This document shows, one piece after another, positions 1 through 48,799 of a stretch of 64,000 nucleotides of DNA. Where the stretch lies: NCBI RefSeq assembly GCF_021134715.1, contig NC_060026.1, positions 12,949,001 through 13,013,000 of the forward strand. Direction: 5' to 3'. The position numbers and the translations under genes were made by a program. The stretch's first letter is position 1. Each line of letters begins with the position of its first letter. This DNA comes from Daphnia pulex. Lineage: Eukaryota; Arthropoda; Branchiopoda; Diplostraca; Daphniidae. The notes beneath the pieces are model-generated. The model saw nothing but the letters and a program-made list of their open reading frames with translations. It did no database searches and had not been told where the DNA came from.

Positions 1-560
1 TTACAATCAATAATTGCCAAAAACTAGTGCATCCATCTATGTAGTGTTACGAGAACTGAGGGTGCCCATGTAAACCATACTGCAAACGAAACTTTGACCA
101 GTAACCCTTCGGGTAATTAGTTTTTAGGACACAATACTGATGACGGAAGGAAGAGTAGACATAAAGTAAAAACACGGAAATTGAGTGAATAAACGCGTGA
201 ATCATGCCTGATTTTAGTGATTTATTAAAAAAAAAAAAGAAAGGTTTGATCAAAGCCAAATAGAACCAGATTCAGCTGGTGAGTTGGGAGTGCTGTTGCT
301 GAACGAAAACGAAACACCAGCGGCTAGTTGTTGTGGACTAAAGCTAGCGGAAAGCAGTATTCTCCGCCCGCGAGACCATGATATACGCATAAAATTGTAT
401 ACACCTCTGGTGCCGGAGCTTCATTCATGCATTACTACTTTGTTAGCTATTTGTGGCTATATGGGAAAACCCTATAAGCGTCCTTCAGCTTTAGCTAGCT
501 AGAAAATTCCGGAGCTGTGGGTCTACTTACGCATCGGATGTTTCTACATGCACCACTGGG
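1..560. other. 5' flank of peptide gene, duplicated
   Basis: No gene is seen here. From about position 110 to the TATA box the sequence is closely repeated at about 9030-9500, upstream of the second peptide gene, so the promoter region was duplicated together with the coding sequence. Short open frames on either strand show no signal peptide, domain or splice context. Confidence 0.6.
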
Positions 561-563
561 TAG

Positions 564-570
564 TATAAAT
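564..570 (+). promoter_or_regulatory. TATA box of first secreted peptide gene
   Basis: TATAAAT lies about 100 bases before the start codon at 667. An A/C-rich initiator-like stretch follows about 25-30 bases downstream, so transcription probably starts near 595. The same box is kept in the second copy at 9503-9509. Confidence 0.6.
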
Positions 571-666: not shown

Positions 667-946
667 ATGAATCCCAAGGTATTGTTTCTTCTGCTTAATA
701 ATTGAAAAAAGACTGAAGAGTAATTTTATTCAATTGTTAATTCTTATTCAACAGGTCATTCTTATTCTTCTCGTGTTGGTTGTCGCTGACGTATTGACGG
801 TCGCAGCCCAGAACGAAAACGATCAGATTTGGGACTACCCGGAAACTGAGCCCGGCATCGTCGTTAACTATCGTCTAGTTCGATTGAGTCGAGCTGCTGA
901 GCCTGCCATGATCGGTTCCAGATTCTCCCGTTGGCTTTTCGGTTAA
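667..946 (+). CDS. Small secreted peptide precursor, copy 1 (possibly C-terminally amidated)
   Basis: I do not recognise the family. The gene has two exons (667-678 and 755-946) joined by a GT-AG intron and encodes 67 residues. The first exon encodes only MNPK. The second opens with a hydrophobic signal-peptide core that ends near an Ala-Ala-Gln site. The remainder has an acidic stretch (Asn-Glu-Asn-Asp-Gln... Glu-Thr-Glu) followed by a basic half with Arg in RLVRLSR and SRFSR. It ends Arg-Trp-Leu-Phe-Gly-stop. A C-terminal Gly can act as an amide donor in neuropeptides and some antimicrobial peptides, so an amidated or cationic defence peptide is possible. This is inference. There are no cysteines. 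The mature part is identical in the second copy at 9609-9906, which argues that it is functional. Confidence 0.75.
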
Positions 947-1287
947 CTCGTCTCATTATTAAAACAATCAACCGAGTACTTATTGTTTTTCCCCATCACT
1001 TTCATGTGTTGTGTATTGAGCACCAATAAGAATTCGTATATAGCCACAACCATTATAGAGCATCGTGCAAGGACCGCCAAGGACCCAGCAAAAGACAAAG
1101 CATACACTATTGAATTGCATATTGAATACCTTATATAATATGGCGTACCTGTTTCCCACACAAATCTAATGCTATTCTTTAATATTGACCCATAAAATCA
1201 AGCGTTCGAAATGTTACTTTCCGATTTGAAACGCCGAAGCTGTGCCGTTTGAACCAATAGAGCTCCACAAAGATTACGGAGTCGTGT
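947..1287. other. Short spacer, part of duplicated block
   Basis: This lies between the peptide gene and the 3' end of the first protease gene. Most of it recurs at about 9910-10250 behind the second peptide copy. No gene, promoter or RNA feature is seen. Confidence 0.5.
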
Positions 1288-3248: not shown

Positions 3249-5356
3249 CAATCTCCTCAGGGAATGAGTGTGACTAAAATTAATGGCTTCTTTCCTATTT
3301 TGTTTGTGGCAATCGTGTTTATTTTTTTTTGGGGGGGGGGGGGATTACGAATTATAACAAATGGGAGGAGCATAATTCCAAAAAAATGTTCAATGTCAGA
3401 CTGAACAAGATCTGCTTATGACTTTTTAAAATTATTTTTTCTGTTTTAATCTAATAATAAGATTAATAATCATTAGTATTATTCATTATATATCATTAGT
3501 ATATTCTTATTTCTTAAGTACGAAATTCTGTAGTTCTTTCAGCATAAATTGTCTGAATATCAACCGCGAATATAATTTATTCGAAAAAATCGTGCCGTCA
3601 CAACTCAAACGGTATTATATCAGAGCAGTCTTAAATTGATTTCCCTATCACACTTAAATTACCTAATGTATAAATCATATTTTTGTCTATAAAGTCAGAC
3701 CACAACCCCAGAGGCAGACGAATGCTCAGTTTTAACTCTTACAATGAAATGCATTTTACACAATGAAGGTCACGTGTCACGTAACAAACAGCTGCAATTG
3801 GCAAACAAATTTGAATATTATAAAACAAGCTTATTTGGGTTCTTACCTAATAAAGAACTCCATCTTGCAGCTGATAAACAACGAAAAAATCGTTTGGCTG
3901 ATCTAAAAACTTGTTCCAGGAGCGACGTTTCCATTATGAAACGTGCAAACGCGACGACCATCATTGTTCACTTTATTTATCCAATTATGGATGTTGTACG
4001 TTGCCAACACCTTCCCGCTCAGGGCGCTCACGAACATGAAATTCTCATCCATTAACGTCTGCTTCGTGATTTCAGCTTATCTTAGCCAAAATATAATACC
4101 GTAATAAACTACCACAATTTTACTATTTAAAACGTTTAGGATTGTAAATATTTACGAAAATGTCTCAAACACACGTTGGTTACTTTTAACGTAGGCCGAT
4201 TATAGTATAGGCTGAGCTGAAACATAATTTTCTCTTGAATCGTTTATCACGAAAACGGAGATGAGTATAGGGATCAAAATTCTAATGATATTGACAAGCA
4301 CAGATATTTTTATATCGACCCAACACAGGTGCTCTGATGTTGACGCCTACGAGGAATTTTCCAGATGTGGAATCATTTTGTCTTCTCACGGTCAACTGAA
4401 AGGGTTCAAGGTATTTTGTAAGTTGACAGCTGGACCACCACGCAACAAGTTATACCGATGTCGTATGGCAACAAGTTTTCGTCCAGCAAGTTCCGACGAC
4501 CTCCAAAAGTCCGTCAAGTCCATCAGATTATTCAAATGTGAAGATTTGGAGGTAATGCAACATTAGTCTTTTAAAAATTCAAAGCATCATATGGATAAAA
4601 TCACCCGGAGCACTGACACGGAGCGCAAACAAGGGGTTGTAATTATTTTTTTCACTTAAGTCTCAAAGAAATAGAATTTAAATTATCCAAGCCCTTATTA
4701 GCGTGCATACCAGTTAGCAACAATCAAGAAACTTCTTCTTTTTTTTTTACATTTCATTTTTTGAACGTTGGAATAAACTGGATTTTTTCTTATCGCCTAT
4801 CAACCATGCTACACGATATTAGAAACTGATCTAACCACTATTTGACACAAGTGAAGCGGAAACAGGTTGAAACCAAAAAGTCAGTCGATTCGCAGGACCT
4901 GGAATATTTTTTCACTAGCCAAAATAAGTGAGCGAATTACGATTTTCTACGGGGCACCGGGCTAATAATTTTGCGTAATTTTGTTTCTTTAAATACCCGA
5001 TTTATTCCGTAAAATGCAAATCAGATATACGAATAATATCATACCAAACCAAAAGAATTTTTGGGATCGCATACAGTTAATTGAGTGGGAAGAAATCAGA
5101 CGTAAAAAAAGTGGTAAAAGAACCAATCGTATCAGATAGCAATATAGAAAAAACAAATTTTAAAAAGGCCATTTAACTTAATCAGATAAATAATTATCCG
5201 TCACCGCAATGCGAAAATGATGAGAATTCATTTCGTGTGATTTTTTTAAAATTTGGATTTCAGGATGAGCATAGATAGATACACCGTAATCCAGATTTGG
5301 GTCGCCTGGACTTCGGAAATATAATCTGGTCGTCAAGTAGTGTTTCCTTGTTCCTG
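3249..5356. other. AT-rich spacer
   Basis: No full gene is seen. It contains a 12-base G run near 3331-3342 and AT-rich sequence. The only stretch with any coding character is a frame at 4261-4551, listed separately. Confidence 0.4.
4261..4551 (+). CDS. Possible orphan exon with Cys-rich frame
   Basis: A 97-codon open frame starts with a hydrophobic stretch that could be a signal peptide and contains five cysteines (at about frame residues 23, 36, 53, 67 and 93). It ends in GAG|GTAATG, a plausible splice donor. I see no convincing partner exon and do not recognise the protein. It may be chance in AT-rich DNA or part of a decayed gene. Confidence 0.2.
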
Positions 5357-6690
5357 CATGTAAGTATTAATGCAGTTCCGGAAAAATGCCACTTTGGCGT
5401 AAACTCCATGTAAATGCTGGATTCGCACAGCCTTTACATCCAATCGATGAAAGACGAATATTAATAATGATATGCGAGCCGCGAGGAGAAATATACACTA
5501 ATGCTGAAATGCTAATGCAGAAATATACGCGTGAACTAAGTTCTAAACTAGTGCAAATGTTAAGCCGTATTAAAAAGAAAGAAAAACTAGCCCATTACCG
5601 ATTAATAGCTCGCAGATTCGGCCCGCAGCTGTCACCCTAGAAACACAATTTGAGTAATCAATACATGAAGGGGAAAAGGCATTTCATTTTTTCTAATTCA
5701 TGGGTGTGGTGACTCTGATGGAACACATCACATTGCATTAGCACCCAATTGTTTAAGTTGTAAAATGTCTCCTTACTTGACACCAATGACACGAGTCTTT
5801 TCCATAAGTTGTTGCACAGAACTGCTGGGGCTTAATTTTGCCTCCGTATGATAAGGCATTACATTCGGCATTAGTAACAATCTTGACAGTTGCTTGTCGC
5901 AGAGCATATTGGGCGCGGATCCATCTAGAACGAAAATAACGGATATGATCTCAAATCTCAAATGCTGGTGCTTTACCAAATTTGAGATTCCCCTTTCCCA
6001 TGATGGCAGCACCTTGGCATTCGAATTGATCAACGGCGGAACTGGCTAATGCTGGCAAGCAAACGGGCGAAATGGCAGGTGAATAAACGATGGCTGGGGC
6101 TACGGTCAGGATGGCAATGTCAAAATACTGCAACTCGCCAACATGAGCATTAGTTGAAAAAAATAGCACATACAGAAATATTCGATTGCTTGAATGAGTT
6201 AAGTTTGAGTAAATATGAATTAAAAAAGATTTAGTTATCTGTATGAAGGCTGTAAAAGCTACAAGAGGCCGCTAAGACACAATCGTCATGTTCAGAAATA
6301 ACGCTTGTCAAAAATCACTTACGATAAATGGCCAAGAATTCGGGATCGCATTGGTTCTACCGACTATGCGGTCAGCTGGGCCGGTATCGGATTAACTCCG
6401 TCGGTGGTGAGTCAGGTCCGACACCACAAGCAATCTGCTTCGTTTCAGAGGTGGCATCTTCGACATCAGGGACGTTATTGTTGGTCGGATTGAAGAGAGG
6501 ATACGGTCGGAACAGAGTGTCATCTGACTGCGTTGTTGGTGATCGATGTCTGACTTGGGGAAGTTCGGGTATAGGCTACGGATTGACATCATCCATCATC
6601 GGGATCAGCGCAGGATTTGCGAAAGCGCTCCTTGCCAAAGGAGTCCACCGTTGTTCAATTAAGTCTCTGCCCCTCGCAACTGCATAGAAT
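5357..6690 (-). pseudogene. Broken serine protease gene (cluster relic)
   Basis: The order on the minus strand is: exon 2 relic (about 6690-6320), exon 5 relic (about 6125-5975), exon 6 relic (about 5925-5776), a decayed exon 7 around 5630 and an exon 8 relic (about 5443-5357). Exons 3 and 4, which carry the catalytic His, are absent from the 200 bases where they should lie. Exon 6 has a two-base insertion just before its ALRQATV-like segment. Exon 8 has a one-base shift after the Cys-Ala-Asn-Pro motif. Exon 5 reads GKG where functional copies read GWG. Exon 7 keeps only GGTGACAG of the catalytic-Ser motif before losing similarity. This copy cannot make an active enzyme. Confidence 0.82.
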
Positions 6691-7369
6691 TAGCATCGAA
6701 TAAAAGTAATTTGACAAGCAGCAATTTTTTGCATGCAGCAAAATTACAAGTTTTCCACGTTTGCAAATAATAATAATTGCAATGAACTGCCATGAACCAC
6801 GCTGAAGGTCACACATACAGCAGTACTTTACTGGACAATAAAAACAAAAACAAATGAAAATATGTAAACAAGCTTTGACTTACCCAATCCATGTTGAATG
6901 GCAAAATCACGAAGAATCCTTCGATTCAAACCGGTTCACGAGCGTTCACGAGGCGGCATTTGCATTCAGGTGGTGTCACCACTCACCAGATCTTCACTGG
7001 CTAGTGGCTATTATACAACAATGACATTGTTATGATGTCGACATTGAAAGAAAAGATGTTGCCAAATAGGCAAATATCCGCCTCATCAGTTCAACATGAT
7101 AAAACTTGTGCATAATATTTGTTTCTGAATCTGATAAATTATGGCCGAAGTAAATGATAAAAAACATGCATTAAGGTTCTTAAGCAGGTTCAATATTTAA
7201 CAAAGGAAAATTAATATTTAAATGAAGAATGGCACGTCCCTGTGCATACTATAATTTTTTGACCCATTTCAGGTCAAATTGTTCTCCCTGGATTATTATC
7301 GGTGGGGTTTTATTATGAAAGAATTCAGTCAATACAGATCGCGCTGAATAATGGAATCCCATCATTTCC
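6691..7369. other. Spacer with no recognised gene
   Basis: AT-rich sequence between the broken protease gene and the first copy of repeat family R2. No coding, promoter or RNA signal that I can support. Confidence 0.35.
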
Positions 7370-7640
7370 AAGAACCATCTAGCGATTCTTGTTCCAATTG
7401 ATTGTTGGCATGTTGGAGCCGAAGCCACACCCACTAATACGAAAATTCAGCTTCGTTTGCGCTTTTTGAAACCTTAGTGACAGCTGACTACATCTACATG
7501 TGCGAAAGTTAATTACACTGAGAACATAAGCCAGTATATTATTGAGACATCGATGAGATTCTAAGTACCACTTCAAGACAATTACTTCCGCACTCATCGT
7601 TATTATGTGGTCTATCGTTGTTACGTGATTATCTGGGGCG
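7370..7640. repeat. Interspersed repeat R2, copy 1
   Basis: This block of about 270 bases contains CATCTAGCGAT and GCTTCGTTTGCGCTTTTTG, and then GACTACATCTACA. Diverged copies lie at about 11980-12250 and 20150-20330. No coding capacity or terminal repeats are seen, and the origin is unknown. Confidence 0.6.
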
Positions 7641-7889
7641 ATCGCATTGGCACTAGTTCACTATGAAGAAAAAGCATTGCAACTTCTGTCGATTCCGCAT
7701 AAGCGAATGCGGATATTTGAGCGGCAATCGTTCTTAAAATGCATTTTCGAACGCCTTTGCCGAATTCGAAGAAACCGAGTCACAGCAAGCAGCAAAAAAG
7801 AATTTGCATGTGGTTTATTCAAATAGATAGATTGGACGCTATTATTATTCCCTATAATTTGACAGACTGGCCAAAGTCCTATACTTACT

Positions 7890-8036
7890 TTTGTCGCATC
7901 ATTGTAATTGGCGTGGTATAGACAACGCGAGTGATCCTTCTCGTTTGTTGCGCATCGTTTGACAAAGTATTTCCGTCTCCCTGGGAATGCATGCCAAGAC
8001 TCACCGATAGCCTATCCAGCTGTGAAAACCTGCAGA
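7890..8036 (-). pseudogene. Orphan exon 4 of a cluster protease
   Basis: The minus strand encodes a segment like exon 4 of the cluster genes (SLGMHSQGDGN, then DAQQTRRITRVVY) with an acceptor-like start and a donor (GTAAGT) at its end. A two-base insertion near its 3' end shifts the frame before the usual Asn-Tyr-Asn-Asp residues. No exons 1-3 or 5-8 adjoin it, and the nearest relic at 5357-6690 lacks exons 3-4. It may be a displaced piece of that gene or the last trace of another copy. Confidence 0.75.
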
Positions 8037-9502
8037 AAAATAACCAGTTCAACCGATGAAATTGCGTAAGTAACGAAATCATTACACTCATTTCACAGGG
8101 TGGATGTTGGAGGAAGATATTGTTGCGTCACTTTGAATAAATATGTATATCGTCGAGTGACTGGAGCAAATGCGGCAATATAAAATTACAAGCAGCAATA
8201 ATCTTGATGAAAATAACACGACACTCTGTACTACAAATCTCTGTAATACAAGCTGACAAAGTAGTTGTTTCGATAAAACAATCAAAATAATTCGTAACAT
8301 TTTTCACTTAAAAGGGATAATTCTTACGAATGTATTCGAAGGCTTGTCGTGTTATATGACTGCGATCCGTGTCCTACCACAATGTCCACCCTTACACTTT
8401 TTCCACTGAACGATTCGCAATTGAGACGACAGACAAATTGATCAAGGATAACTATTAACTGCACTGCTGGTCTACGATACGACAGACGGACATCTTATAA
8501 ATAGCACAGTTTGGAAATTACAAACTTAATAAGTTAATGTCCGACGTATCGGATAACCTCCCAACTTGACTGACATAGCACCTCTATTCACATTAAAGAC
8601 ACTTTCTCAAATGAGGACGCCCATCAATTAAGTCAGACGAAATTGGGCAATTGTGCCCCCCCCCCCTTACATTTTATCACAAAGGAAAAAACCCCTTCAA
8701 AGAATTACATCACAAAAGAAGACCCTCCCCCAGACGAAAAAGAACACAAATTTTAGTAATAGTTTTGGACCAAACTTGTGACGTCACATTTGACCTCCAC
8801 CCACATCCCGTCTTAAAATTTACGACCCCTCCCTCCTCGATGATTGACGTAATTTATGGACGCTTCAAGGACATATCCCGATGTCGACGAAATTGTTAGC
8901 CATTTCTCTGAGCTTTGATTTCAATTCCGCATTGAAATCGAAAAGAAATCCTAGTTCCTTCCGCTTTCACGGAATACAATTCGATATCCTATTAAACCAC
9001 AGCGTGTGGATTAAATGCTATCCGTATTAGTTTTAGGACACAATACACCTAGGATTTCTTGAAGGTATTTTTCTGAATTGTCGATGACTGAAGGAAGAGT
9101 AGATATAAATTCAAAACAAGGAAATTGAGTGAATAAACGCGTGAATCATTGCCTGATTTATTTAAAAAAAAAAACAGGTTTCATCAAAGCCAAATAGAAG
9201 TAGATTCAGCTGGCGTGTTGTGAGTGTTGCTGAACGAACACGAAACACGCACACCTCGCCAGCGGCTATAGTAGTTGTAATGCGGCGGATTTAAGCTAGC
9301 GAAAAGCAGTATTCACCGCCCGCAAGACCATGATACGCATAAAATTGAACACCTTTGGCTCGGAGTTTCATTCATGCATTACTACTGTGCCAGCTCTTTG
9401 TGGCTATGGGAAATCCCAAGCGTCCTTCAGCTTTAGCTAGAAAATTCCGGAGTTGAACTTCTTACGCATCGGATGCTTCTATCTGCACGACTGGGTACTT
9501 AG
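8037..9502. other. Spacer and upstream duplicated block
   Basis: From 8037 to about 9000 I see no gene, only AT-rich DNA with a C run near 8657-8666. From about 9030 the sequence repeats the 5' flank of the first peptide gene. Confidence 0.4.
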
Positions 9503-9509
9503 TATAAAT
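9503..9509 (+). promoter_or_regulatory. TATA box of second secreted peptide gene
   Basis: TATAAAT is at the same relative place as in the first copy, about 100 bases before the start codon. Confidence 0.6.
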
Positions 9510-9608: not shown

Positions 9609-9906
9609 ATGAACCCTAATAAGGTATATTGTTTCTTCTGTCGAATAATTTGCCTTATAACTACTTAAAAGACTCGAGAGTAATTTCATTCAATTGTCAA
9701 TTCTTATTCAACAGGTCATTCTTATTCTTCTCGTGTTGATTGTCGCTGACGTATTGACGGTCGCAGCGCAAAACGAAAACGATCAGATTTGGGACTACCC
9801 GGAAACTGAGCCCGGCATCGTCGTTAACTATCGTCTAGTTCGATTGAGTCGAGCTGCTGAGCCTGCCATGATCGGTTCCAGATTCTCCCGTTGGCTTTTT
9901 GGTTAA
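9609..9906 (+). CDS. Small secreted peptide precursor, copy 2
   Basis: This is a paralogue of the gene at 667-946. The exons are 9609-9623 and 9715-9906, encoding 68 residues. It differs from copy 1 by one extra Asn in the first exon and a Val-to-Ile change in the signal peptide. The predicted mature peptide, including the terminal Trp-Leu-Phe-Gly, is unchanged. Synonymous and intron differences are present (for example a longer intron with an inserted stretch near 9650), so coding conservation exceeds that of the intron. The function is unknown; the amidation idea given for copy 1 applies here. Confidence 0.75.
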
Positions 9907-10261
9907 CTCGTCGTCTTGTTTTTGAATTTTGAATCAACCGAATATTTATTGTTTGACGCCACCATTTTCATACGTATTGACTTATTGAGCACCAGTTAGA
10001 AATCGCATAGCCACAACCATTAGAACATCCTACCGGTACAAAAAACCAGCAGAAGAAAAAGCATCGACATTACTATTGAATACCTTTTCCTGCGCAGGCA
10101 ACACTCAAGTCTGAGTAGGCCTAGTAATACAAAAAATACCTTTTCCTCTTATGGCGTACCTGTTTCCCATTCAAATCGAATGCTATTCTTAATAATATTG
10201 ACCAATAAAATCAAATCCGTTCGAAACTTTACTTTCCGCTTTGAAACACCAAAGCAACTGG
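9907..10261. other. 3' flank of peptide gene, duplicated
   Basis: This is a diverged copy of 947-1250. No gene is seen. It is followed directly by a copy of repeat R1. Confidence 0.5.
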
Positions 10262-34098: not shown

Positions 34099-35077
34099 TT
34101 TTAACAAGCGATCTCCCACTCAACCGGACCGAAATGGTGGGGGTACTTTTCGGATCGTAATCCGGAAAAGAACTTTACAAATCCGGACTAGGTCTAATCT
34201 GTTCAGAATCGCAAGGCGATTCCAACGGAATTAAGTCCGGATTTTTATCTTTTCCCGTTCACGAGATAATCACGGTTGAAAATCGTGAAATATCACGAAA
34301 ACCCAAAGTCTCCACGTCCGACTACATCGCTTTAAGCCGTATATTCGGCTTGTAAAAAAAAACTAATTGATACAAAATGTAGCCCTTTCATCCCTTTTTC
34401 AGAATCCAAAAGGATTTTTTATAATTCTTTGAGATGTTTGAGATATCACGATTTTCGTGATACCCCCATTTCGACACATTTTTCAGGCATTTCATTCGGC
34501 GTTGCCGATTGCCGTATATGTGCTTTTCGCCCCCTTTCCTGTCCACTCCTTCGCTTTTCCCCTGTTTCCTATGTATCAAGGCCTTGTATATCGATACAGA
34601 TGGGACTTGATACATAGGAAACAATGGAAAAAGCGAAGGAGTGGGGGCGAAGTCACATATACGGCAATCGGCAACGCCGAATAAAATGCTTGGAAAATGT
34701 GTCGAAATGGGGGTATCACGAAAATCGTGATATCTCAAACATCTCAAAGAATTATAAAAAATCCTTTTGGATTCTGAAAAAGGGATGAAAGGGCTACATT
34801 TTGTATCAATTAGTTTTTTTTTACAAGCCGAATATACGGCTAAAAGCGATGTAGTCGGACGTGGAGACTTTGGGTTTTCGTGATATTTCACGATTTTCAA
34901 CCGTGATTATCTCGTGAACGGGAAAAGATAAAAATCCGGACTTAATTCCGTTGGAATCGCCTTGCGATTCTGAACAGATTAGACCTAGTCCGGATTTGTA
35001 AAGTTCTTTTCCGGATTACGATCCGAAAAGTACCCCCACCATTTCGGTCCGGTTGAGTGGGAGATCGCTTGTTAAAA
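34099..35077. repeat. Long near-perfect inverted repeat (foldback element)
   Basis: The left arm (about 34099-34580) and right arm (about 34606-35077) are reverse complements with a few small indels and a 25-base loop. The arms are about 475 bases each. The outer ends read TTAACAAGCGATCTCCC and GGGAGATCGCTTGTTAA. A TTAA at both edges could be a target duplication of the piggyBac type, though TTAA is itself a palindrome and could belong to the arms. Smaller hairpins (ATCACGATTTTCGTGAT) lie inside the arms. A 170-codon frame on the minus strand spans the element, but it follows from the palindrome and has no domain. The TTTCAAATTTCAAATTTT flank on the left is not repeated on the right. Confidence 0.9.
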
Positions 35078-39876: not shown

Positions 39877-40920
39877 TTAAATTCTAAACTGTCTAAAGTT
39901 CATATTGTTAGGTTTCAACAAATCGTCGAATTTTGGAAAGCCACCGCTAGTTTTGAAAAATTCCTCACTGGATCCTTTGTAGCTGTCTGGATAGCTCGGC
40001 TTCTCGTTGTAAGACGTAGGATATTCCGGCTCGGCCGCTGGAGAATAAGGAGCTTCGCCGTATGCCGGAGCAGGTGAGTACTCCTGTGGCTTGTAAGAAG
40101 GAATTTCGCTATAAGTAGGAGGAGAATATGAAGGAGCTTCGTAAGCTGGAGGGCTGTATTCTTCTGGTTGGTAAGCTGCTGGAGCCTCTGGGTAATAGGA
40201 AGGAGAGTACGACGGAGCTTCGTAACTCGGGACGTATGGAGGAGAGTAAGGAGCTTCAGTATAAGCGGTAGGGCTGTATGAAGGTGGGTTGTAAGAAGGT
40301 GGGCTGTAAGATGGTGGGCTGTATGAAGGTGGGCTGTATTCAGAGGGACTGTATTCAGAAGGACTGTAAGAAGGAGGGCTATAGGATGGAGAGTTGTATT
40401 CTGGACTGTAAGTCTGTTGATTGTAGGATGGCTCTGGTTTGCTGTACGCTGGAGCTTTGTAATTTCCCTTGGGGGCTCCGTACTGGGCTTTGGGGTGGTG
40501 TGGCTTGGGAGCACCGTACTGGGGTTTGGGGGTGACGTGATGCGCTTTAGGAGCTCCGTATTGAGGTTTAGGTGTTGCGTAGCTATGCTTTTGCTTCTTG
40601 TTTTTGTTCAGCCCGAAAATTCTGCCCTCCTGATCCGGTTTGACGTTAGAACGCGCCTCCGTCATGTTCCCGGAACCGGAATTCGACCTCTGTTCAACTG
40701 TTTTCCCCTTGGTCTCCGCTGCAAACCCGACAACTGCGAGCGCTAGCAGAGACAGCAGGATGAAGGCAAAGATCTGTAAAGAGCGTAAATTACTCTTAGG
40801 ACTTCATCAATTTTTTAAAATCTGAATTATTAGTTACCGGCTGACAAATGGATACATTTTCGAAACATTCGCATTCAAAAGAAACAATTGAAAAAAAAAA
40901 ATTACCTTTGATGTTTTCAT
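39877..40920 (-). CDS. Tyr/Pro-rich secreted repeat protein 1
   Basis: Two exons, 40920-40906 (MKTSK) and 40773-39877, give 303 aa. A strong signal peptide ([16 protein letters not shown]) ends near residue 24. Then come a hydrophilic region with RIFG and a Lys-rich stretch, YGAPK/TPKPQ repeats, and a long tract of YSPP(S/A) units mixed with Tyr-Ser-Glu and Glu-Ala-Pro-Tyr units. The C-terminus ends FRQFRI. There are no cysteines and no chitin-binding RR motif that I can see. Tyr/Pro-rich repeats of this kind occur in arthropod cuticle, cement and silk-like proteins, where Tyr can be cross-linked; an extracellular structural role is inferred. It is the most diverged of three tandem paralogues. 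Confidence 0.85.
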
Positions 40921-41016
40921 GGCGATTGCAAGAGTTGGTATCCTAGTAGTAGAAGAAGCTACGTTGAAGTGAAGCTCGAGAACGTCACTGATGCCAATTT
41001 GAGGAAAATGAATCCA

Positions 41017-41023
41017 ATTTATA
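41017..41023 (-). promoter_or_regulatory. TATA box of Tyr/Pro-rich gene 1
   Basis: Minus-strand TATAAAT is about 100 bases before the start codon. The downstream 5' UTR (TGATGCCAATTTGAGG..., GAAGTGAAGCTCGAGAAC in complement) is shared with the two paralogues. Confidence 0.6.
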
Positions 41024-41029
41024 CTAGAG

Positions 41030-44009
41030 CTAGTAGTACAACTGATGTAAGCTCCGCCTAACTATAAGCATAAGCCGCGATCGTGCGCCCATCTTCACCA
41101 GCCCTTTCTGTGTGTCTTGTTTTGCTTTCCCGCAGGAGATCAGATGTTATGCGTGGTTTGAGCTACTAACCCGGCCTCTCTGCTGTCGCCGTTTCATTTT
41201 CTCTGCGCTGCGGCTTTTCTTCACCGAACAAAAATTGCGGGTCTAGACGTTGATCGATCTTTGAATTGGCGAAAATGAACCGCAGATATGCACGGAAATG
41301 TGTGAAGGTATTCGGAGCATCTCCAATTCGAATAGAGTCATTCGTTCCGCTGGATGAGAAAACTCAATCGCCATTGGAGAAAGTGCTGGCATTTCATTAT
41401 TCGTGTAGGCGCGTCGTATAGGCTTTCACTACTATGCCTTATAGTCTCATGTCTGACTAATTTTTTGGGGAAATTAATCTGATTACCTTAATGTTATTTC
41501 AGGCTTCTTATTACACCGCATGATCTCTTCCCTGGAACTATACAAACCCGGCCTGCATATGAAACCGAGGGAATTGCGGTTGCAATGGAAACGCTGATTC
41601 TCCGCAGTCGACAATTTGCTTGAATCTATACCTGAATAAGTATAGCTTATACACATCTTTAACTACGTTAACTAGCTGTTACGTTCAGCGTTGTCAATCA
41701 GTATGTTGAATTTTCTGTCGACAATTTTCACAGCGGTAAAAGGCGGTAAAAGATTACAGTTAACAAGCTGAAAGTTGTGGAACACGAAAGAAAAGCGGTT
41801 TCAGCCATAAGGAGTTTAAATGAATCACCTTGAATTCAAAAAGGTGCACAAAATAATACACGCCCTTCCGGATTGTTGATTTAAAAAAACAAAAACAGCT
41901 GTGACTAAAATCTAACGACTTATTAGTAAACAGCAAAAACCTAACCAACACGAAGAAAACTGCCGTTGCAAATATTTCCTCTTGCTTTTTTTTCCCTGGG
42001 TGAATTATTATGTCAGTTATATTCTATTTTTGAATTTAGGTCTTCACAATATGGAACAGCTTGCGGGCGAAAGCAGTCACAAATAACACGACGAAAGGAG
42101 AATAACCGGTGAGTTATGAAACTTTCTATACATCGGTCTAACACAACGGCGGTTACGTTGTTTCGGTCATAATTATCTGTTAACCTGTTAAGATGATTTT
42201 AATTTTTGTTTTCTAATACTGTCTAGACGGTACTTCAATAATCGCTGCAAAATCTTCCTTGTCATTCCAAGGGCTTTCAGAACGCAAAAGAATTAAGGGC
42301 AAATATCCCATGATGACTTTGACGTGGAAAACATTTCATGGAATTTGTGCTTGCAATAAACGTCTTCAAGTTGCGAAACATGGCGAAAGAAAAATTAATT
42401 AAAGGCAAAATTAATTAAAATTATCTTTTTCTAAAAAATTTCCTCGTTTTGATATTTAATTTTAATTTTGGGTTAATGACCTTTCAGTATTTGAAATACC
42501 CATTTGCGACGAAAGGTGGGCGTTGTAAGAACAAAAATATCTTCCGGCCAGACGACATTTTGCTGTAAATCACCCCACAGGTTCATTAAAGTTAATCAAA
42601 GTTAATTGACTTTAAAGTAATGATCTAATTTCGTCTGTGATTCCACCTTCAGGGCATCAGTCAAAGTCTTGTGTTTTGCGACACGAACCAACCCAAATTA
42701 TTTGCGAGTTATTAGTTGGAAACCATTCGCTAATTTTAGCAACCCTTCGTTTACCAGCGTTGACGTGCTCATTTATATCTCACCCGTGTTTAGTGGGAGT
42801 AAAGGAACTGCTCCACAGTTGAAGGTTCCACGCCATAGATCAGGATCTGGAGAAAACCATTCCTTCGACAATTCAGCCGCCAACACGCCGGACTACGAGC
42901 TACAAGGATTAGCTTTGTGCGCACCAAATTGTGTGGTCCTTCACGACAAATGCACCATCGACCCATATGCTCCAATGTTGGCGTTTTGGGGTTATTGCCT
43001 TCGCTAGCCGGCCGGACAGACAGTTGGTAAGTCAAGTCGTCCAAACTTCCTTTTGATGTAAATTATAAACGGCAGTTATGCCAGACAGCCATTTCGCTGA
43101 GGTCGGTGGTTAGTATAGAACCGTAAATGGCCATCACCGCCAAACATGTTGCATTGCGTCATCGTTTGACATCTGTCGACATCTTCCGTCGCACATGTTA
43201 TTTGAGACTAACTTTCATTCCGAATTCGGTTGGCATCAATTTCCACGAGCAATTAAAACCGGGTTGCTCTTTTCCGACGGAAGGTGGTTTTTGCGGAATA
43301 CTTTCGCCACAAGAAAAAATATCTTTTTTATTTTATTCTATTTTTTTTATGAAATGGTTTTGGGTTCTTCATCGGCGTACTCTAAGACCCAATTGGTACG
43401 GCACTTACCGTCACCAACTTCTGTGGAATTTTCTCCGCCATGGTGACGTCTTAGAAGTTTTTATCAAATGTAATATTGGCCGCGGGAAAACAATTAATTC
43501 ACTAGCGGGATAAGAGATTGATGGTGATGGTTCATCCCGTTAACTTCAGCCGGATGTAACTCTTATTCGGTTATTCTGGTGTAGTCTAGCGCTTCCTTTG
43601 AGCTTGCGGGGTTTAAATTTTTCTTGTTCCGTTTCCTTCTTCATACCAAGTCAACCTGACGAGTAATTTAATACTAAGAGTCTTAATTTAAAACAATAAC
43701 AGAACAAAATTTAAACTTAATTCTTAAATCGTTAAAAAGTATTAGATCAAGCGTTTACTTCAAAGAGATAAAGAAAATGATAAAAGCAGGTTTTGATTTC
43801 GATATATATTTTGCAATGCACGCAAGGTGTGTTCAACACGGAAGAAATAACATAACAAATGAAGTCATCTTATATTTAACATTATTCATACTATCTTTAC
43901 TGTCTGCGACTGTCGGAAGGGAAATATTTAATCTTTCAGTTTTTCGAAAAATTGAAAGTGAATTGACTTAAATTAATAGAAATTGTTAATTGCATCATAA
44001 TTTCAGCTC
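41030..44009. other. Spacer between structural-protein genes 1 and 2
   Basis: No supported gene. Blocks at about 41090-41420, 42290-42370 and 43230-43320 recur near 49000-49390, 45860-45900 and 45985-46070, so the spacers were duplicated with the genes. Open frames of 112 and 128 codons (42669, 43127) lack signal peptides, domains and splice context and fall on these shared blocks. Confidence 0.45.
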
Positions 44010-45259
44010 TTAAAATTTAAACTGTTGAAAGTTAAAGTCGTTAGGTTTTAAAAAGTCCCCAAATTCGGCGAAATTATAAACATTTTCATTGGGACCTTTG
44101 TTGCTTTCTGGGTAGTTTGGATCCTGGTTGTAAGGTGTAGGATGTTCAGGCTCGGCCGGTGGAGAATAAGGAGCTTCTTCGTATGCCGGAGGTGAGTAAT
44201 CCTGTGGTTTGTAGGCAGGAGCTTCGGAATCAGCAGCAGCTTCGTAGTTTGGTGACTGCGGTGGTGGATAAGGAGCCTCAGTGCTGTGAACTGGTGGGCT
44301 GTATTCCTCTGGTTGTTGGTAAGCAGGAGCCTCTGGGTAAACGGAAGGCGCCGGAGCTTTGTAACTGGGGACGTATGAAGGAGAGTAAGGAGCTTCAGTG
44401 TAAACGGGAGCTGGAGGGCTGTAAGAAGGTGGGCTGTAAGATGGTGGGCTGTAAGAAGGTGGGCTATAATCAGGGGGGCTATAAGCAGGGGGGCTATAAG
44501 CAGGGGGACTGTAAGATGGTGGACTGTATTCAGATTGGCTATAATCAGGGGAGCTGTAGGAAGGCGGATTGTATGCAGGCGGACTGTATGCAGGCGGACT
44601 ATATGCAGGCGGACTATATGCAGGAGTAGTATAGGCGGGAGGGCTATAAGCTGGGGGGCTGTATGCAGGTGGGCTATAGGATGGAGGGCTGTATGCAGGT
44701 GGGCTATAGGACGGAGGGCTATATTCTGATGGACTGTAAGCCTGTTGATTGTAGGATGGCTCTGGTTTGCTGTACGCTGGAGCTTTGTAATTTGGCTTAG
44801 GTGTTTCGTACTGGGCTTTTGGGGCTTCGTATTGTGCCTTTGGAGCGCCATACTGAGCCTTAGGAGCACCGTACTGGGCTTTGGGAGCACCGTATTGAGC
44901 TTTAGGAGCACCATACTGTGATTTTGGCGCTCCGTAGCTTGGTTTCTTCTTATGTTTGTCAGATTTTAAAAACCCGAAAATTCTGCTCTCCTGATCCTGT
45001 TGTCCGCTACTGCGCACATATGTCAAGTTCCTCAAACCAACATTCGACTTTTGTTCAACTTTTTTTCCAGTGGTCTCAGCCGCTAAATTGCCATCGAACC
45101 CGACAACTGCAAGTGCCAGCAGTGACAGCAGGATAGAGGCAAAGATCTGTACAGCGTAATCAAATCAAATGATCGACAGAATGAATTATTTTCTGAAAAT
45201 TATTTCCGCGATTGAAACTGAATGAAGCAAAAATTTACCTTTGATGTTCCGTGTCTCAT
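44010..45259 (-). CDS. Tyr/Pro-rich secreted repeat protein 2
   Basis: Exons 45259-45239 (MRHGTSK) and 45146-44010 give 385 aa. The signal peptide ([16 protein letters not shown]) is followed by [11 protein letters not shown] with an N-glycosylation site, the conserved RIFGF...[12 protein letters not shown] box, seven or so [14 protein letters not shown] units, and a run of more than twenty YSPPA/S units with variants ([15 protein letters not shown]). The C-terminal part is Glu/Pro/Ala-rich and ends [11 protein letters not shown]. The terminal FxxFLxPNxFxFQQFK motif is shared with gene 3. Probably an extracellular structural protein; Tyr-rich repeats suit oxidative cross-linking. Confidence 0.87.
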
Positions 45260-45390
45260 GTTGATTAGGATGTAAGTTTTCTTAATAGTAAATGTTGTAC
45301 TTAATTTCTTTCACGAAGAAGCTACACTGAAGTGAAGCTCGAGAACTTGAGACGAGAACACTGATGCAAATTTGAGAAGAATGACTCCAA

Positions 45391-45396
45391 TTTATA
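45391..45396 (-). promoter_or_regulatory. TATA box of Tyr/Pro-rich gene 2
   Basis: Minus-strand TATAAA in GATATAAATTGG, about 135 bases before the start codon. The whole 5' region is nearly identical to that of gene 3 (48931-48936). Confidence 0.6.
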
Positions 45397-45399
45397 TCA

Positions 45400-47590
45400 G
45401 TAGATAAACTCCGCCTTCCTTGAAACAAGCCGTTGCCCATCTTCGAAAGCTCATCCTACGTTTTAGATTCGCGTGACGTTTGTCTGACTTTCCCACTTCG
45501 TGCATTGTGGCCAACACCAAAAGCTGCTTAATCCCGTTGCATGTCTCCAAAGTACCGGTGCAAAAGAACTTCAAAAAGTGCTTCACGATTTTGAGATCAA
45601 AATTCATATCGAATGTAACGAAAGATTTCTTCCGTGTTGCCCATCCTGGACATTTACAATTTAAAACGTTCAGGACAGGAATCGCGTGCGGAAAGTATAA
45701 CTATGTGAGGTTCCGTTAACCTTATACTTCGTTCCGAGAAATATTTCCACATCAGTCAAACTTGTTTTTGAATAGTGGTAGCCGTCCCATACTCTTGACT
45801 CCCATTTTTATTCTGTTAACTTGTACGTTAGTAATAATTACCGATTGTACAACTGACGACTTTGACTTGGAAAACTATTTCGTGGAATTTATAGAAATGG
45901 AAATATTTCTCCGATTGGACTCACTAAAGGGAAGTACCTCTGAGTTTGGCTGTCGTTGTTTTTTTTGTTTTTTTGTGGCATCATTTGCCATGGAAAATAA
46001 AACCGGGTTGCTATTTGCCGACGGAACGCGGTTTTTTAATTAACACAGAATATACTTTAGCCCCAAGAAACGGCAGAATTTTTGACGAATATATAACCTG
46101 GGCCAAATTTTATTTGATTTAGGTTAAAATGACTTTTGGCAAATGTAATTTCTGCCGCAGGAATATTAACGTTAAACTCACAAACGGAACACGCGAGTAA
46201 TTGAACTTTTCAGGACCATTGAAAGTTACTGTAAAATTGTACTGAATTGTTATTGGTCAGTATCCAATAAGGGCATAACATCAGAAACAGAAAAATCTCT
46301 TTTAAATTTTATTCATTTAGCAAAAACTTTGTGAGCAGTTTTAAATCAACCCTCAAAAACATTTTGTCTTATTGCCTTTGCATTTGCATTAATGCTCGAG
46401 TTCCGGAGAGCTCAATTTACTCAGAAATGGTTCCTTGAGGGTAGGTAGCACATACGGACGAAGTGGAACAAGGAAATTACGAAAACCAAGTTCTCGGAAC
46501 ACTTGGAATTCATAATGTTATTTATTTATTTTTTTTTATCTGCTCAGAAATGAGTTGTTCAATTGAGTATTTGCATATTAGCAATGAGTACGTCTTTTCA
46601 GTTTTAATTACAGTTTTAAATTAAATCGGGGGAAATTAAGGTTTGGGACAAACTCGAATGAAGTTTTATTTGTTGATTACAGTGCCGGTCCACTTATGCG
46701 ACCACTTGGTGCAGCGGTCGTATAATTGGATGGTCGCATAACCGGCCAAATGAATTAGTAGTAAGTAGAAGGTGATGACTGAATCTTAGTAACACTTTGC
46801 TTAAAGAAAACAAATTGTTACGACTGACGAAATTCATCTTTGTTCGAAAAAGTCCAACCCTTTTTAAATAATGAAGGTCAATGACGATTTAATAACAAAA
46901 TACCTCGAAATGGATTAAAATAATCCAAGTCGCGGCATGTTTATCGACAGAAAAGTTTGAACTAGGGGAATCTCGCGCCAGAAAGTGGTGCAAGCAAAAG
47001 GGTGGTCGTATACCTGGATTGGCCGTATGGGCAGGCGGTCTGATAAGTGGACCAGCACTGTAACGATAATCACTCCACTTCAGACACAAATGTACAGTCC
47101 TTCGGTTATTTCAGTCAATTACATCCTTGGTGGATTAATTCGAATTTTGCTTGCTCTATTTCATTCTTCAATTCTTCATGACAAGTCACCCTGATAAGTA
47201 ATGAAGTCGTTAAAGTTTTGCTCAAGCGTTTGCTTTGTAGAGATAAAGAAAATGATAAAAGCAGATTTTGATTTCGATATATATTTCCAATGCACGCAAG
47301 GTGTGTTCAACACGGGAGAAATAACATAACAAATGAAGTCATCTGATATTTAACATTATTGATACTATCTTTTCAGCTCTAGACAATTTTGATGCGTCAG
47401 CTGTTTTATGTAGACTGAAGTACGAATTATGTTGAATACGACGAGGGAACTGGATAATTTAAAAATTGTGCTTTTGATGATAAAGGAAAATGGTGAAATT
47501 AATTCAGATTTAATCTTTCAATTTTTCGAAAATTGAAAGTGAATTGACTTAAATGAGTAGAAATTATAACTCGCATTAGGATCTCACCTC
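45400..47590. other. Spacer between structural-protein genes 2 and 3
   Basis: No gene is seen. The part at 47228-47545 is a close copy of 43755-43985, each lying just 3' of its gene; the 47 kb copy has an extra insertion of about 100 bases with CTAGACAATTTTGATGCGTC. Confidence 0.45.
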
Positions 47591-48799
47591 TTAAACTTTA
47601 AACTGTTGAAAGTCAAAAGCGTTTGGTGTTAAAAAGTCCTCGAATTTGGGGAAACTAAAAAAATCTTCATTGGGTCCTTTGTTGCTTTCTGGGTAGTTTG
47701 GATCCTGGTTGTAAGATGTAGGATATTGAGGCTCGGCCGGGGGAGAATAAGGAGCTTCTTCGTAGGCTGGAGGTGAATAATCCTGTGGTTTGTAGGCAGG
47801 AGCTTCGGAATAAGCAGGAGCTTCGTAGTTTGGTGACTGCGGTGGTGGATAAGGAGCCTCAGTGCTGTGAGCTGGTGGGCTGTATTCCTCTGGTTGTTGG
47901 TAAGCAGGGGCCTCTGGGTAAGCTGGTGGAGAGTAAGCAGGAGCCTCTGGATAAGCTGGTGGAGAGTAAGCAGGAGCCTCTGGGTAAGCTGGTGGAGAGT
48001 ACGCAGGAGCCTCTGGGTAAACGGAAGGCGTCGGAGCTTTGTAACTAGGGACGTACGGAGGAGAGTAAGGAGCTTCAGTGTAAACGGGAGCTGGAGGGCT
48101 GTAAGAAGGTGGGCTGTAAGATGGTGGGCTGTAAGAAGGTGGGCTATAAGCAGGGGGGCTATAAGCAGGGGGGCTATAAGCAGGGGGGCTGTATGCAGGA
48201 GGGCTATAAGCAGGGGGGCTATAAGCAGGGGGGCTATAAGCTGGAGGGCTGTATGCAGGAGGGCTATAAGCAGGAGGGCTGTATTCTGATGGACTGTAAG
48301 CCTGTTGATTGTAGGATGGCTCTGGTTGACTATGCGCTGGAGCTTTGTAGTTTGGCTTGGGTGCTCCGTATTGGGCTTTTGGTGGTCCGTATTGGGGCTT
48401 AGGGGCGCCGTATTGAGCTTTAGGAGCGCCGTATTGAGCTTTAGGAGCACCATACTGTGGTTTTGGCGCTCCGTAGCTTGGTTTTTTCTTATGTTTGTCA
48501 GATTTTAAAAACCCGAAAATTCTGCTCTCCTGTTCCTGTTGTCCGCTACTGCGCACATATGTCAAGTTCCTCAAACCAACATTCGACTTTTGTTCAACTT
48601 TTTTTCCAGTGGTCTCCGCCGCTAAATTGCCATCGAATCCGACAACTGCAAGCGCCAGCAGTGACAGCAGGATAGAGGCGAAGATCTGTACAGCGTAATC
48701 AAATTAAAATGATCAACTGAATGAATTAATTTCTGAAAATAATTTCCGCGATTGAAACTGAATGAAGCAAAAATTTACCTTTGATGCTCCGTGTCTCAT
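47591..48799 (-). CDS. Tyr/Pro-rich secreted repeat protein 3
   Basis: Exons 48799-48779 (MRHGASK) and 48685-47591 give 371 aa. It is a recent tandem duplicate of gene 2: signal peptide, [11 protein letters not shown], the RIFGF...KHKKK box and the C-terminal NAFDFQQFKV motif all match. It differs in the repeat tracts. The YSPPA tract is more homogeneous, and a 36-base unit encoding AYPEAPAYSPP is repeated three to four times at about 47910-48020, where gene 2 has a single unit. Promoter and 5' UTR are almost identical to gene 2, so co-expression is likely. Confidence 0.87.

Follow-up and report, generated by a model that had tools for sequence, protein, structure and literature searches.

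A Daphnia pulex family of small secreted peptides with kB-type promoter words and a conserved Gly-stop end: candidate defence peptides

At about even odds (a probability of roughly 0.5), the small secreted peptides encoded by at least six related genes of Daphnia pulex are host-defence peptides of the antimicrobial type, induced through NF-kB and amidated at the C terminus. GGGAAAWCCC words, which we take to be Dorsal/Dif/Relish (NF-kB)-type sites, lie upstream of the start codon in every member, and each precursor carries a signal-like N terminus and a Gly directly before its stop codon.

In one genome survey, the Toll pathway is described as fairly well conserved in D. pulex and no antimicrobial peptides as recoverable (PMC2685406). 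A second paper states that the main Drosophila antimicrobial domains, sought across species, yielded only Defensin2, in the chelicerates Ixodes and Mesobuthus (PMC4833078), and a third gives ALFs and crustins as absent from D. pulex (PMC5437397). It is possible, if short of probable, that Toll/Relish-controlled, amidated, possibly pyroglutamate-capped peptides of the Daphnia lineage are the effectors that similarity-based surveys of D. pulex missed. If the effector reading is true, the promoter footprint together with the Gly-stop architecture would make a Daphnia-lineage family reachable. Daphnia is a main model of host-parasite coevolution, and kB-driven defence peptides, if real, would provide six concrete effector genes for such work.

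Gene structure and family membership

The window, that is, the whole stretch of 64,000 nucleotides analysed here (C10:12949001-13013000), contains copies 1 and 2 of the family (Table 1). The first-pass annotation had described two two-exon genes about 9 kb apart with secreted-type products of 67 and 68 residues ending RWLFG-stop. Both genes are as described: their start codons are separated by 8,942 bases, and the products comprise 67 aa (copy 1) and 68 aa (copy 2). Each begins with MNPK or MNPNK, continues with VILILLVL[V/I]VADVLTVAA and ends in the same 45 residues, QNENDQIWDYPETEPGIVVNYRLVRLSRAAEPAMIGSRFSRWLFG, including the Gly. A TATA box, GTATAAAT, stands about 100 bp upstream of the ATG in both. 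The 3' flank has AATAAA in copy 2 against CATAAA in copy 1, with an additional ATTAAA near the copy 1 stop (window 958-963, 1191-1196 and 10204-10209); from these signals, the two copies may differ in polyadenylation.

Four members were used in turn as queries against the genome (133,188,837 bases in 13 contigs, 12 of these of 6.6-16.3 Mb); the member count is a lower bound. The duplication noted earlier is real, but 'two' copies was too few, as the family has at least six genes: three lie on C10 inside the window or close to it, two more on C10 at a distance of about 1.2 Mb, and one on C2. They fall into two subfamilies, copies 1-3 and copies 4-6, and the best match across these, copy 4 against copy 1, has E = 5e-4. 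This kinship is strengthened by a shared gene layout. With first exons located by reading the upstream DNA, all six members have the arrangement ATG-(1-3 codons)-AAG/gt...ag/, with a single phase-0 intron straight after the AAG codon; intron lengths are 76, 91, 99, 120, 442 and 1118 bases.

Eighteen positions are invariant in the six products (copy 1 numbering: M1, K4, L9, V11, V17, L18, Q23, Y32, E34, P37, R44, R47, E53, R60, F61, W64, L65 and G67). The chains end in RFSRWLFG in copies 1-3, NRFPGWLFG in copy 4 and NRFPGWLYG in copies 5 and 6, such that RF..WL[F/Y]G-stop is common to all. A search for relatives outside the genome in IMG/VR, a collection in which animal genes are not expected, found none.

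Table 1 Features of the six family members (positions without a contig are those of the window)
Feature	Position	Strand	Remark
Copy 1 kB-type word GGGAAAACCC	463..472	+	204 bp before ATG; one of two GGGWWWWCCC in the window
Copy 1 weaker second kB-like word GAAAATTCC (other strand GGAATTTTC)	502..510	+	in longest invariant block of copies 1-3
Copy 1 TATA box GTATAAAT	563..570	+	
Copy 1 exon 1 (MNPK)	667..678	+	ATG at 667
Copy 1 intron, GT..AG, phase 0	679..754	+	
Copy 1 exon 2	755..946	+	signal remainder to 808; post-signal part 809-943; stop 944-946
Copy 1 C-terminal Gly codon, putative amide donor	941..943	+	after Trp-Leu-Phe; Gly-stop in 6/6 members
Copy 2 kB-type word GGGAAATCCC	9408..9417	+	201 bp before ATG; the other GGGWWWWCCC in the window
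Copy 2 weaker second kB-like word GAAAATTCC	9440..9448	+	
Copy 2 TATA box GTATAAAT	9502..9509	+	
Copy 2 exon 1 (MNPNK)	9609..9623	+	
Copy 2 intron, GT..AG, phase 0	9624..9714	+	
Copy 2 exon 2	9715..9906	+	post-signal part 9769-9903; stop 9904-9906
Copy 3	C10:12927356-12927550	-	69 aa
Copy 4	C2:8394024-8394197	-	60 aa
Copy 5	C10:11723131	-	60 aa
Copy 6	C10:11719596-11720893	-	60 aa; frame intact

Divergence and selection

Copies 1 and 2 are the youngest pair. Their identity is 0.88 upstream, 0.89 in the promoter/5'UTR, 0.90 in the intron and 0.82 in the 3' flank, compared with 0.979 in exon 2. At the pooled noncoding mismatch rate (124/906 aligned bases), four or fewer differences in the 192 bases of exon 2, as observed, would be improbable (P = 2e-8). 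Synonymous sites fit the noncoding rate (5/50 differ, P = 0.30) and non-synonymous sites fall below it (1/151, P = 6e-9), and the two classes differ from each other (P = 0.004, Fisher test). This was the Ka/Ks check proposed in the first-pass annotation. Since synonymous sites diverge like noncoding DNA and non-synonymous sites do not, the coding sequence of the pair is, judged by these site classes, under purifying selection.

The post-signal parts of the pair encode identical protein; over their 135 bases they differ by 2 synonymous changes. Selection on the protein suffices to explain this identity and gene conversion is not needed, because the synonymous sites (5/50) have diverged to the noncoding level; conversion confined to the mature part, which has 2 synonymous changes in 32.5 sites, may have occurred.

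The claim of an unchanged mature region holds for this pair and fails across the family. Copies 1 and 3 differ with dN 0.178 and dS 0.209 (dN/dS about 0.85), and copies 4 and 5 with dN 0.202 and dS 0.306 (about 0.66). Pairs 1-2 and 1-3 have different shares of non-synonymous differences (Fisher test, 0.016); they have copy 1 in common and hence are not independent. Between subfamilies, dS exceeds 1 in all nine pairs but dN is 0.37-0.50; the retained Trp-Leu-aromatic-Gly-stop end is therefore constrained. Fast divergence among the older copies, as estimated from these rates, suits defence peptides. Copy 6 has a 1.1-kb intron and an RxxR run short of one Arg (RFIG), and is possibly a decaying or re-specialised member.

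kB-type words in the promoters

The GGGAAAWCCC word precedes the ATG in all six members, at -204, -201, -226, -334, -297 and -365 (copies 1 to 6). The wider pattern GGGWWWWCCC occurred five times in a background sample of 20 10-kb stretches, placed at round coordinates over all twelve large contigs, or 0.01 per 400 bp. The whole window has it twice, both times ahead of copies 1 and 2, and the neighbouring protease genes are therefore without one of their own. Across the 133.19 Mb of the genome, GGGAAAACCC occurs 313 times and its reversed control 357 times; the word is therefore rare and not generally favoured. If the two lineages are taken as independent, and before correction for motif choice, a match in both would arise by chance with a probability of about 1e-6 for GGGAAAACCC and about 1e-4 for GGGWWWWCCC. 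The motif was picked after GGGAAAACCC-like words had been seen upstream and was then tested; this post hoc choice, and a genome-wide count no higher than that of the reversed control, count against the defence reading.

Footprinting that presupposes no motif was done by aligning the 480 bp upstream within each subfamily and taking the longest invariant run. In copies 4-6 this was a 23-mer, TTGGGAAAACCCAAATAAGTGGG, around GGGAAAACCC, followed by the TATA box (10 nt). In copies 1-3 it was an 18-mer, AGCTAGAAAATTCCGGAG, holding GAAAATTCC, followed by runs of 14 and 13 nt, which makes this footprint less sharp; the upstream alignment of these copies is well conserved throughout. GAAAATTCC occurs five times in the window. 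Second words also lie in the other subfamily (GGAAATTCC at -185 in copy 4 and -182 in copy 6; GGGTAATCCC at -214 in copy 4), and the copy 5 promoter has no second kB-like word. In copy 4 it is GGGTAATCCC, and not the GGGAAAACCC at -334, that aligns with the -204 site of copy 1, and the exact word thus occupies positions in one subfamily that do not correspond to those in the other.

These comparisons bear on the possibility that each product is simply a secreted peptide of, say, gut or cuticle, neither amidated nor under NF-kB control, with words kept by descent or bound by another factor. Promoter ancestry is common within copies 1-3 and within copies 4-6, the motif was chosen after the fact, and copies 1-3 sit amid trypsin-like protease genes, all of which fit such a peptide. 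Descent accounts poorly for an exact word at non-matching places in two subfamilies, however, and the coincidence of the longest invariant promoter blocks with kB-like words argues in the same direction, as do the both-lineage chances given above. We consider an ordinary secreted peptide quite improbable.

Elsewhere in the genome, GGGAAAACCC lies at C3:3343466-3343475, about 565 bp upstream of a Rel-domain exon and some 320-565 bp ahead of the first coding exons recognised in that gene, a post hoc positive control from among the 100 of 313 places listed. The gene concerned (region C3:3342400-3344400) is Relish-like by eye, and on this arrangement NF-kB autoregulation in Daphnia is possible. 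Two further GGGAAAACCC words, 211 bp apart (C2:1571416 and C2:1571627), are in or beside a stretch that is multicopper-oxidase-like by eye (C2:1570000-1573000); Pfam gave no match for two ORFs of that stretch. Another pair, at C2:11823927 and C2:11823939, had no evident gene in the ORF list. By these two examples, the word alone is no marker of defence peptides.

Precursor features, candidate products and surroundings

All six precursors have a signal-like N terminus, judged from hydropathy and the residues around the cut: the hydrophobic core has a best 10-residue mean hydropathy of 3.6-4.1, and the residue at -3 is V or T and that at -1 is A or S, followed by Gln. AlphaFold2, run on copy 1 exon 2 with no alignment, gave a confident helix for the signal and a low-confidence model, with a pLDDT of about 60, for the remainder. 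The mature part is without cysteine in the six members. RxxR sites number three in copies 1-3, two in copies 4 and 5 and one in copy 6. The acidic front and basic back noted earlier are strong in copies 1-3 (front half -5, back half +4 or +5) but not family-wide, the front half carrying 0 to -2 in copies 4-6; back halves range from +2 to +5 over the six members. The whole post-signal chain has a net charge of -1 to 0 in copies 1-3 and +2 to +3 in copies 4-6.

The terminal Gly had been proposed as an amidation substrate. Its position is kept in 6/6 members, which is consistent with that proposal, and the amide itself is putative. Exons for a Cu-monooxygenase domain are encoded in the genome, as are Rel-domain exons; because this domain is common to PHM and the dopamine/tyramine hydroxylases, the former exons are no proof of PHM.

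The main rival to the defence reading is a neuropeptide or peptide-hormone precursor, releasing a single C-terminal amidated peptide of WLF- or WLY-amide type that would act on a G-protein-coupled receptor. The aromatic-Gly-stop end in six of six members and the small single-peptide precursor suit a hormone, as does Lys-Arg before NRFPGWLF-Gly in copy 4 or the Arg that precedes NRFPGWLYG in copies 5 and 6; the neuropeptide-like site of copy 4 also counts against the defence reading. Set against this, the other five members have no dibasic site before the putative amidated peptide, and kB-type words are the best-conserved elements of the promoters. Six fast-diverging copies would, moreover, be unusual for a hormone. 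Literature text searches, in which the D. pulex peptidome papers Christie 2011 and Dircksen 2011 figured only as reference entries, found no WLFamide or WLYamide family, and the peptide strings returned only three chance matches (a receptor sequence, a spider-toxin sequence and a web address). With moderate confidence, we favour an immune over a neuropeptide reading because kB-type words precede all six genes, and regard a hormone as rather unlikely; were the products hormones, a WLF/WLY-amide family would also be notable.

An NF-kB-controlled secreted immune peptide need not kill, and the same promoter evidence would serve a cytokine-like signal, an opsonin or a Bomanin/Daisho-like Toll effector of other action. 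The net charges fit such a role, as the chain is not cationic overall in copies 1-3 and reaches only +2 to +3 in copies 4-6. The basic aromatic end with Gly-stop, on the other hand, resembles a layout common among antimicrobial peptides, and we judge a non-killing role unlikely.

The scheme that we infer for a defence peptide, from induction through trimming, pyroglutamate formation and amidation to antimicrobial action, would run as follows. An immune signal would activate Dorsal or Relish as the Rel/NF-kB factor, whose binding to the kB-type words, 165-365 bp upstream of the ATG, would turn the gene on. The precursor of 60-69 aa would enter the secretory pathway and its signal peptide be cut just before Gln, a residue that could be converted to pyroglutamate. 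Trimming may then occur at the conserved Arg-x-x-Arg run and detach the front of the chain from its back, which is basic and rich in Trp and Phe. With copies 1-3 at a net charge of -1 to 0 after the signal, a classical cationic product therefore needs such trimming. PHM/PAL would convert the terminal Gly into an amide, giving ...RFSRWLF-NH2 in copies 1-3 and ...NRFPGWL[F/Y]-NH2 in copies 4-6. Candidate products are AAEPAMIGSRFSRWLF-amide, SRFSRWLF-amide, the whole pyroGlu...WLF-amide chain and NRFPGWLF/WLY-amide, and the amphipathic, basic, amidated end would act on microbial membranes or targets. The missing RxxR Arg of copy 6 and the single word of copy 5 count against the defence reading.

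The first-pass annotation did not recognise the family, and neither profile libraries nor the PDB gave anything above chance for the six members. Pfam returned no antimicrobial family at E up to 10 and only NVEALA, at 0.15, in two of the six; the best NCBIfam value was 0.034, to unrelated bacterial families; and the two PDB hits were at chance level. Among the matches listed for Daphnia neuropeptide and antimicrobial literature, none described the peptide family, judging by title and the start of the abstract.

Compared with known systems, the family can be set beside cecropin-type insect precursors, which have about 60-65 aa, a signal peptide, a mature part without cysteine, a C-terminal Gly for amidation, a Rel-controlled promoter and a small gene family. 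The Daphnia peptides gave no Pfam match to such a family (E up to 10); their basic part is shorter, they carry an RxxR run and a Trp-Leu-Phe/Tyr end, one subfamily has an acidic front, and the intron directly follows codon 3-5. The Toll-induced Bomanins and Daisho of Drosophila are likewise small, secreted and multi-copy, and their lineage restriction and Toll control would be further parallels; the Daphnia family has no profile match to them, and the Bomanin disulphide motif contrasts with a mature part free of cysteine. Arthropod amidated neuropeptide precursors share the signal peptide, the X-Gly-stop end and, in copy 4, Lys-Arg before the last peptide; the Daphnia family differs in its five members without a dibasic site, its kB-type promoter words and its six diverging copies. 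Crustins and ALFs, also secreted defence peptides of crustaceans, are cysteine-bearing, unlike the mature part here.

The window also contains a cluster of trypsin-like serine proteases, about seven genes or remnants as judged from repeated segments (1284-38068; Pfam Trypsin in the three of three exons tried), and further trypsin-like protease genes lie to its left. Between copies 1 and 2, at 5336-8010, protease-like exons look scattered and partly broken, and this stretch is possibly a decayed copy. At 34099-35077, an inverted repeat with 435-nt arms, 98% complementary and separated by 109 nt, has the look of a transposable element of the hairpin type, or else of an inverted duplication that arose recently. 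Within 40108-48490 lie three tracts of tandem repeats of 15 and 21 nt, one of which gives repeated YSPPA on the minus strand; from this translation, they probably encode repetitive structural proteins.
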